Of a stretch of DNA of 64,000 nucleotides, positions 48,043-55,416 are shown piece after piece. Source of the DNA: Thermococcus piezophilus (GTDB lineage: Archaea; Methanobacteriota_B; Thermococci; Thermococcales; Thermococcaceae). The notes under the pieces were generated by a model. It had not been told where the DNA came from. It saw only the letters and a program-made list of their open reading frames with translations, and ran no database searches. The stretch lies in the NCBI RefSeq assembly GCF_001647085.1, contig NZ_CP015520.1, forward strand, positions 372,001-436,000, given 5' to 3'. Both the position numbers and the translations under genes were made by a program. Each line of letters opens with the position of its first letter. Positions within the stretch are counted from its first letter, which is position 1.

Positions 48043-48127
48043 GCGGGGGTTGCCGAGTTTGGTCAAAGGCGCGGGATTTAGGGTCCCGTCCCGTAGGGGT
48101 TCCGGGGTTCAAATCCCCGCCCCCGCA
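48043..48127 (+). tRNA. tRNA-Leu (anticodon TAG)
   Basis: A class II tRNA. The acceptor GCGGGGG pairs with CCCCCGC, the anticodon stem CGGGA/TCCCG closes the loop TTTAGGG (anticodon TAG), and the T-arm is CGGGG-TTCAAAT-CCCCG. The long variable arm expected for Leu is present. CCA is encoded (48128-48130). A TATA-like TTTTTAAAG lies about 30 bases upstream. Confidence 0.93.
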
Positions 48128-48370
48128 CCACAACAGCCCTTGCTTCGCAAGCGCTGGCGGAAAATTAGGTGCTTTTCTAAGAACGTCAAGTTTTGTGATG
48201 ATTTACTCTTCAAGTTGCAGTTTTTCAGGGTTTGCTAATCTCAAGGCGTCCTTTGGACGCCAGAACAAAAAGCAAACTGTTTGAAAGACTTCCATTGAAG
48301 TTAAACCCACTTTCCAACCAGCAAATTATGAGTGCACGACTGTCCTCCAACAAGTTGAAGAGGAGGGCAC

Positions 48371-48406
48371 TCTTTGATTAAACTTTGTTCCAGCAAAGTT
48401 TGTTTG
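48371..48406 (+). repeat. AAACTTTG hairpin element, copy 1
   Basis: AAACTTTG (48380-48387), loop TTCCAG, CAAAGTTT (48394-48401), with CTTTGATT before it and GTTTG after. Copy 2 at 49242-49277 has the same element in the opposite direction, loop included. Confidence 0.8.
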
Positions 48407-49241
48407 CCAATCAAAAATTTCATCAAAGTTCGTGATTCCTGTTTGAGGATTTCTCGTGAAGGAATTTCGTTTCAATGGGCGCTTTTTGAAGGAATGCAGT
48501 CGTATTGATATACCTTTGATTGGATTTTTACTCCACCTGCGCTCCTCCGGAGCGCTAAAGAAAGCAAACCCTCGACAGGTTAAACTTCAGAATTGCATTC
48601 CATTAGTAACTTACCGTTCAAACGTTAAATCCCCAAAATTGGACGTGCACTAAAAAGAATCACGAGCCTTTCGCCAGCTTTTCCTAAAGGCTGAGTGTTG
48701 ACGGAAAAATCGCGTTCAATTCTAAATTGGTCTCTTGTGAAATAGGTTTACTCACCAGTTGCCAACTCTTCAGGGTTTCACTCTCCTCAAGGCGTCCGAA
48801 GGACGTCAGAATAAGAGTATAAACCTCTCAAAAAGATTACTTTTGTACAAACCCTTTAAATCCTAGGGATTTGATAGTGCACGCTTGATTTTCTGTCCTT
48901 GAGCAAGAAAGGGACACTTTGGTCAACCTTTGCTAGACAAAACTTGATAGCGAGAGTTTGATCAAAAATATTGGCTGGTAGAATTGAGTCAAGATGAATT
49001 TGTACGTCCATTATTTATCGCCGTTTATGATGGGACTCTATTTAAATTCAAAGCTTTTGACGTTTGTTCCTTTCTTCTGCGCCCGTAGGGCGCTAAATTG
49101 GGTTGAACACTCTAAACTTGCCCTTTAAAGAGCGAGTCTACTTGTAAGATTGGCAGTTTAGAAGAGACGTACTAACTTTGATGAAACTTCACTGAGAACA
49201 AAGTTCTCAGTGTGTCGGAGCTTCGCTCCAATATGCGCAGG

Positions 49242-49277
49242 CAAACAAACTTTGCTGGAACAAAGTTTTATCAAAGG
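49242..49277 (-). repeat. AAACTTTG hairpin element, copy 2 (inverted)
   Basis: Reverse complement of copy 1 over about 35 bases with very few differences; hairpin 49247-49268 with loop CTGGAA. The pair forms an inverted repeat about 0.87 kb apart. Confidence 0.8.
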
Positions 49278-49495
49278 ATAAACTTCTCACTAAACGGGCA
49301 GAAATGAGTTCGCATCTTCTTTTAAGCTTGCTAGTTTAAAGCGAGTTTAATTCAAAAAGCTGGCAAGTTAAGAGGTTTTTCTCCCCTTAATGCCCAAAGG
49401 ACATTATTTTTGAAGCGTAAACCCTGAAGATTGACAGGTTAAATGTAAACTCGCTTAGAAGTGGGCAACTTCAGAATGAGATGCCAACTTTGATC

Positions 49496-49517
49496 AAACT
49501 TTTCGCCAGAAAAGTTT
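49496..49517 (+). repeat. AAACTTTT hairpin element, copy 3
   Basis: AAACTTTTC (49496-49504), loop GCCA, GAAAAGTTT (49509-49517), preceded by ACTTTGATC. It lies six bases beyond the 3' CCA of the minus-strand tRNA-Val, where it could help end that transcript. Confidence 0.75.
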
Positions 49518-49525
49518 GTTTCTGG

Positions 49526-49600
49526 TGGGCCCGCGGGGCTTTGAACCCCGGACCTCCGCCGTGTGAGGGCGGCGTCATAACCAGGCTAGACCACGGGCCC
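49526..49600 (-). tRNA. tRNA-Val (anticodon CAC)
   Basis: On the minus strand: acceptor GGGCCCG pairs with CGGGCCC, anticodon stem CCGCC/GGCGG holds CTCACAC (anticodon CAC), and the T-arm is CGGGG-TTCAAAG-CCCCG. CCA is encoded at 49525-49523. Cloverleaf pairing is complete. Confidence 0.93.
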
Positions 49601-50438: not shown

Positions 50439-50793
50439 TCTCTTCCACCGACCCAGCGTAGGATGGGAGGTTTTTAAGCTTGACCGCCAAACGTGGGCAA
50501 CTCTGAGACTGCATTTAATCTCCCAATTAATGTTAAACCTGGATTCAACTTAAAATGGCCGGTTTAACGCGGGTTCACCTTGTTTTAGATGCCAGTAAGG
50601 CGTCAGGTTGGAGAAACTCGCATAAACACCGCCATTCAGTGAATGGATCCATCAACAAGCAAGCCAAGTAAAAAGAGGAATTCATTGCAAAACTGCAATC
50701 GTAATGGGTTAATCACTTTGATCAAACTTTGCAAAGCAAAGTTTGTTAGGCAATTGCCGAAAGGTTTATAATGATTGACGAATATCTTTCACT
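50439..50793. other. AT-rich intergenic region with hairpin
   Basis: About 350 bases without a gene. It has the same AT-rich character as the tRNA interval, a hairpin element at 50724-50744, smaller inverted repeats (ATTCAGTGAAT, TTGCAAAACTGCAA) and, near the end, TTTATAATG at about 50766, the TATA box of the next gene. Confidence 0.6.
50724..50744 (+). repeat. AAACTTTG hairpin element, copy 4
   Basis: AAACTTTGC (50724-50732), loop AAA, GCAAAGTTT (50736-50744), preceded by CACTTTGATC and followed by GTTAGG. Fits the pattern CTTTGATYAAACTTT...AAAGTTTGTT shared with copies 1-3. Confidence 0.8.
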
Positions 50794-55290: not shown

Positions 55291-55416
55291 GAGACCACCT
55301 CAGGTGGGGATAATGTCCTCATCGTCTCCTCGGGAGGGATGACACTCATCATCGGTCAACCTCACTAATGGGTAGGGCTTATTAAGGTTTGGCCCTCCAT
55401 TTTGTTAGGTGATGGA

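Follow-up and report, generated by a model that had tools for sequence, protein, structure and literature searches.

A probable fold-back DNA element of ~280 bp, stacked behind two convergent tRNA genes in Thermococcus piezophilus

REP sequences and REPINs are small, palindromic, non-coding chromosomal units with two inverted end hairpins and a high turnover, and are mobilised by RAYT (PMC3116915). MITEs, such as those of Sulfolobus islandicus (PMC3718332), are short, non-autonomous, multicopy sequences with inverted repeats. The Thermococcus repeat unit that we describe here works like a REPIN or a MITE while conforming fully to neither. Like a REPIN, it is a non-coding palindrome with two inverted hairpin ends, but it is ~280 bp long with a nested body instead of consisting of two short REPs, it is set in fixed orientation at the 3' ends of RNA genes, no counterpart of the GTAG/CGTC tag that stands beside the REPIN hairpin was noticed in the consensus of our alignment A3, and the T. 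piezophilus genome has no Y1/RAYT transposase. Like a MITE, it has terminal inverted repeats and a short multicopy non-coding body, but no parent element was found in the contexts read and no clear target-site duplication was seen, and the units stack and show an extreme preference for tRNA 3' ends. The same archaeal order is known to harbour other repeated, structured intergenic sequences, the sRk48/sRk52 RNAs of ~130 nt, which contain a K-loop and of which P. abyssi has six copies and T. kodakarensis one (PMC3124441). Judging from these descriptions, our unit differs in its high copy number and in being absent from one whole sister genus. In eukaryotes, retroelements such as Ty3 and the Dictyostelium TRE use tRNA genes as safe landing sites at a fixed distance, whereas the Thermococcus unit has no retroelement genes, belongs to another domain of life and lies directly at the tRNA 3' end. 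A search of the open-licence literature (main texts without supplements) returned no description of the repeat.

Chromosomal inversions associated with tRNA genes have been reported in Thermococcus, and the pTN3 integrase acting on tRNA genes was invoked to explain them (PMC5495485). They involve the same loci as the units, namely oppositely oriented tRNA pairs, but the part of that paper available to us does not mention the repeat. According to the same part, an in vitro test of the proposed pTN3 integrase gave no recombination between tRNA-Leu and tRNA-Thr (PMC5495485), which makes recombination between units a directly testable alternative.

The locus lies in a window of 64,000 nucleotides, by which we mean the whole stretch of DNA analysed. 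It spans positions 48131-49522, exactly the gap between tRNA-Leu(tag) (48043..48130, + strand; ARAGORN) and tRNA-Val(cac) (49523..49600, - strand; ARAGORN and RF00005), as a preliminary description had proposed. That description also holds for the lack of genes, since the longest ORF wholly within the interval is 65 aa and the ORF check gave nothing pointing to a gene, and for the high AT content (GC 0.40-0.41 versus 0.51-0.56 in nearby genes). At least six hairpins had been claimed, and six whose stems are perfect over at least 7 bp were indeed found; 100 dinucleotide shuffles of the interval averaged 1.34 and never exceeded 4. The diverged internal duplication seen earlier is real (spacing 545-546, identity 72-83%), but it captures only part of the pattern: R1, a covariance model of the unit body, identifies five cores in the order + + + - -. 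Three units run outward from tRNA-Leu and two from tRNA-Val, so that the two stacks meet in the middle of the interval. The concern that the interval might be an assembly collapse is removed by an independently assembled relative, G028, which carries the same middle units at 92% identity.

From an alignment of sequences behind tRNAs, the unit length is ~275-285 bp. The tRNA-proximal end takes one of two forms, type A, (T)AACAGCCCTTTGC-loop-GCAAAGCGCTGGCGGAA, or type B, ACAAACTTCGC-loop-GCGAAGTTTGATCAAGG, while the distal end reads CTTTGATCAAACTTTGC-loop-GCAAAGTTTG. The body consists of three nested helices, GCGTGC/GCACGC (or GCATGTC/GACATGC), GGGTTTACTC/GAGTTAAACCC and GTTTCAC/GTGAAAC, with a GGCGTCC/GGACGCC hairpin at their centre. 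With a hairpin at each end and a nested stem-loop body, the unit thus folds as one imperfect palindrome.

Unit 1 (48131..48408, +; core 48196-48313; 100.7 bits with R1) has the type-A end CAACAGCCCTTGCTTCGCAAGCGCTGGCGG and is included in A3; its 3'-terminal hairpin, AAACTTTG-ttccag-CAAAGTTT at 48380..48401 (+), was picked up by the hairpin scan and corresponds to helix 6 of A3. Unit 2 (48409..48671, +, boundary approximate; core 48489-48605) is degenerate, matching R1 at E=0.0037 with filters off, and begins with the leftover of a broken end hairpin; it is 92% identical in G028, where it is the tRNA-proximal unit. Unit 3 (48672..48950, +, boundary approximate; core 48741-48860; 82.1 bits) matches a tRNA-adjacent unit at locus L143. 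The remaining two units are oriented from tRNA-Val: unit 4 (48951..49239, -, boundary approximate; core 49028-49142; 48.4 bits) and unit 5 (49240..49522, -; core 49338-49455; 85.4 bits). The latter has a type-B end, a form that occurs at many tRNAs, and shares 91% identity with the unit that follows tRNA-Ala(cgc) in G014/G026. Its tRNA-proximal terminal hairpin, CAAACTTTTC-gcca-GAAAAGTTTG in the + reading (49495..49518, -), is followed outward by TTTGATCAAA. G028 lacks units 1 and 5, the outermost unit on each side, and the difference between the two genomes therefore comes down to the two tRNA-proximal units, through either gain here or loss there. In G014, by tRNA positions, tRNA-Val(cac) faces tRNA-Arg(ccg) and not tRNA-Leu, which identifies the pairing of the two stacks as a product of rearrangement.

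We next consider where units sit, using the 54 units that R1 identifies in three genomes (the window's own, G028 and G014). Of these, 46 lie at most 1.5 kb downstream of a tRNA, in zones that make up 3% of the genome, and all 46 have the same orientation as the tRNA. The tRNA-to-core distances are quantised at ~70, 350 or 620 nt and cluster by unit rank: many first units lie at 68-77, later units at 333-437 or 614-636. By blastn, about a dozen further places were found in the window's own genome, most starting no more than a few bases from a tRNA 3' end, and such tRNA-adjacent starts are likewise seen across the genus. The first conserved bases lie 1-14 nt after CCA, mostly 2-6, in 122/122 tRNA-borne ends of a sample picked in part by similarity to the island. 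Unit ends are present at 15/44, 17/44 and 23/39 tRNAs in the three genomes. In these closely studied genomes, a multicopy element takes up between about one third and more than one half of tRNA 3' flanks.

Eight of the 54 units are not downstream of a tRNA in this sense. One (L246) stands behind an apparent intron-bearing tRNA, another (L121) beside a tRNA-Gly fragment displaced together with an integrase-like gene, and two lie on the C/D sRNA sR36 (L245, RF01124). Type-A ends stand at sR36 in three species, with differing sequence behind them, which makes sR36 a recurrent site. Similarly, a type-A end directly follows the H/ACA sRNA Pab160 in the window's own genome, there with no unit core. 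Units also start where a protein gene ends, at its stop codon (L244, L258), or come after a conserved sequence that contains a TATA box and a T-run (L125, L308, L347, L348). The two stop-codon units, together with end hairpins found upstream of ribosome-binding sites, indicate that RNA genes are not the only kind of site used.

Several of these places deserve mention in their own right. At L121:1300-3050 (313800-315550 of the window's own genome), the 3' fragment of tRNA-Gly is joined to the integrase-like gene, and the repeat island that comes next matches units found downstream of tRNAs; it seems that an integration carried off the flank which the tRNA had originally. The conserved TATA box with CCACCCTTTTTTGGGTTGGG..GTGTACAATTTTTTTGCAA occurs at L125, L308, L330, L347 and L348, repeatedly with a unit after it, and possibly marks an undescribed short transcript. 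At L301 and L312, a two-hairpin sequence ~70 nt before position 1502 (minus strand), ending in CCCCCTCACAG, looks like an H/ACA sRNA, although Rfam gives no match to it, and is immediately followed by the start of a unit. Solo type-A end hairpins, often of the variant GCGCTCGCGGAA, are located directly upstream of the ribosome-binding sites of operon genes, with no unit body after them (L270, L271, L277, L323, L329, L331, L337, L345, L350). Several apparently lie within the cluster for the membrane-bound hydrogenase and at pyrI. From their translations, several of the genes beside them are presumably mbh-type hydrogenase, pyrI and ribosomal L6 genes, and on account of these resemblances they were rejected as candidates for a mobilising enzyme.

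A comparison across Thermococcus, suggested in the preliminary description, found the unit in 57 of the 61 genomes searched, with 0-28 matches per genome. The nine genomes of one sister genus gave no match, and three further genera gave between none and five; at most of the 20 loci inspected in these three, the unit is immediately preceded by a tRNA with a type A or B end. Neither plasmid, phage nor viral collections (viral contigs searched with two patterns) contained a match to the unit.

Units also change rapidly. Of 36 tRNA genes, 17 differ in the presence or type of the end among the three genomes. In G076, units 98.9-95.7% identical to each other occupy the Arg(ccg), Val(cac) and Val(tac) tRNAs, the block of identity running from CCA to TTTGATCAA ~310 nt later, just inside the end hairpin of the next unit, and further unit pairs more than 82% identical are found at different tRNAs. 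G074 and G076 share the Arg(ccg) unit at 100% identity, whereas its flanks are 85-92% identical. All ten copies found of the subfamily to which the G076 units belong sit behind Arg(ccg) or Val tRNAs, one of them on a truncated contig where the tRNA is visible only in part. Several of the changes consist in the exchange of the proximal unit for another and are not pure insertions, and inner units often stay.

The reading that we favour, and consider probable, is that the island represents two stacks of a non-autonomous ~280 bp fold-back DNA element, similar to MITEs and REPINs and targeted to the 3' ends of small-RNA genes. It builds on what was observed directly: the anatomy of the unit, its bias in site and orientation, the turnover of whole units, near-identical units on different tRNAs and the structural covariation described below. 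Almost all placements of the units are 3' of small stable-RNA genes, tRNAs in the great majority, and the same end always faces the RNA gene. Newcomers would land at the end of the RNA gene, and older units would be pushed outward, or the tRNA-proximal one replaced. Arrival at the RNA-gene end would explain why three units trail tRNA-Leu and two trail tRNA-Val, and why the more decayed units 2 and 4 stand behind fresher tRNA-proximal ones. The mobile or recognised form would be folded single-stranded or cruciform DNA, and a putative trans-acting enzyme would insert the units. An element of this kind would parallel, in prokaryotes, the tRNA-targeting elements of eukaryotes, and it points to a mobilising activity to look for.

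No transposase or integrase could be linked to the unit ends, and searches with end motifs in the 61 genomes and in an active subfamily revealed no coding copy in the subset of contexts read. Comparisons of filled and empty sites gave no clear target-site duplication; the empty sites carried older units. A Y1 transposase (PF01797) was rejected as partner because it is absent from the T. piezophilus genome, and it is present in only 15/61 congeners. Antisense coding remnants behind Thr(cgt), Glu(ttc) and His tRNAs were rejected as an autonomous partner, since they look like remains of the RHH N-termini of SSV-type integrases. Such RHH-like ORF remnants, running antisense into the tRNA 3' end, are found at L203:5848-6159 (G028) and downstream of tRNA-Thr(cgt) (L172) and tRNA-Glu(ttc) (L171/L186), and look like footprints of past integrations.

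The main rival, which strikes us as rather unlikely, dispenses with transposition: the units would be old tRNA trailers, spread by homologous gene conversion between tRNA loci and anchored by similar tRNA 3' ends on one side and by TTTGATCAA/hairpin sequence on the other. The limits of the shared G076 block, at CCA and at TTTGATCAA, are as conversion would have them, as is the replacement of proximal units with inner ones kept, and the most recent copies are confined to tRNAs with near-identical 3' ends, GGGCCC(A/G)CCA (Val isoacceptors and Arg(ccg)). In addition, two loci of the window's own genome, tRNA-Arg(tct) and tRNA-Gln(ttg) (L151 vs L223 and L155 vs L230), match G014 at 96-98% identity along more than 1 kb, compared with ~85% at other loci, so that inter-species recombination does take place at tRNA loci. 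However, units are also present on tRNAs with dissimilar 3' ends, and on sR36 and the conserved transcript-like sequence, which lack tRNA homology, and conversion alone leaves the first colonisation of a site unexplained. Transposition and gene conversion may both be operating.

The fold of the unit bears on a second alternative, namely that the units form a structured non-coding RNA family, co-transcribed with tRNAs or terminated behind them and kept for a cellular role. Over 37 units, the six-helix structure is 91% paired, with double-sided changes at 25/45 pairs; pairing falls to 25-48% when partners are slid by 1-3 columns, and shuffle controls are exceeded as well. Because the aligned rows are related, it is the slide control and the double changes that carry the argument, and the compensatory changes support the six-helix fold. 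Such strong covariation is what an RNA family would display, and the strict sense orientation behind RNA genes and the presence of units in nearly all Thermococcus would fit it too. RNA helices, however, tolerate G-U but not A-C, and on the modelled strand the helix positions contain 39 G-T versus 47 A-C, in contrast to 15 versus 0 in the tRNA acceptor stems of three of the same genomes (Fisher p=3e-5); helix P1 alone leans the opposite way (14 G-T versus 5 A-C). As the G-U bias typical of RNA is absent, folding of DNA, or correction of DNA templated by the palindrome, is favoured over a functional RNA. Since the unit is palindromic, both strands fold, which likewise speaks against an RNA, as do the fast turnover and decay, the lack of a unit end at about half or more of the tRNAs and the lack of any Rfam match to the interval at strict or lax thresholds. 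We therefore do not favour the earlier suggestion of a non-coding RNA source and judge an RNA family to be quite improbable. At tRNA-Val(cac) of G077 (L376:1500-1830), the unit interior has been wholly lost at the base of helix P1, as expected for a deletion caused by replication skipping the hairpin (hairpin slippage).

Integrases do use tRNA genes in Thermococcus, as stated in the part of PMC5495485 available to us, and integrase-fragment footprints lie behind other tRNAs of this genome, but we give practically no credence to the island being the remnant of one plasmid or provirus bordered by tRNA attachment sites, given that five units tile the whole interval, there is no coding trace or attachment repeat between the two tRNAs, and the plasmid, phage and viral collections hold no match. 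Of the earlier idea of an integrated-element relic, the word element comes closest, while a unique relic has given way to a five-copy stack of a genus-wide repeat. The earlier proposal of a replication-related site was rejected as well, GC skew in the interval being near zero with no step across it.

Beyond the island, the fold-back element might exemplify a broader class. We put forward only tentatively, as possible but somewhat doubtful, an archaeal selfish DNA that would use the 3' ends of small stable-RNA genes in general (tRNA, C/D, H/ACA), insert one-way as folded single-stranded DNA through an undescribed enzyme, build time-ordered stacks with the newest unit by the RNA gene, and also provide crossover sites for the tRNA-linked inversions of Thermococcus. 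The units do supply homologous inverted sequence at tRNA pairs, where Thermococcus chromosomes invert. Between the window's own genome and G014, at tRNAs with conserved upstream sequence, downstream synteny is lost at 8/18 with a unit compared to 2/12 without one, a link that is suggestive, with numbers too small to conclude.

Elsewhere in the window, a weak match to the model (50536-50653, -; E=0.047) falls in an AT-richer gap beside dphB and could be a decayed unit, and the C/D box sRNA sR55 (RF01307) is found at 55298-55356 (-).
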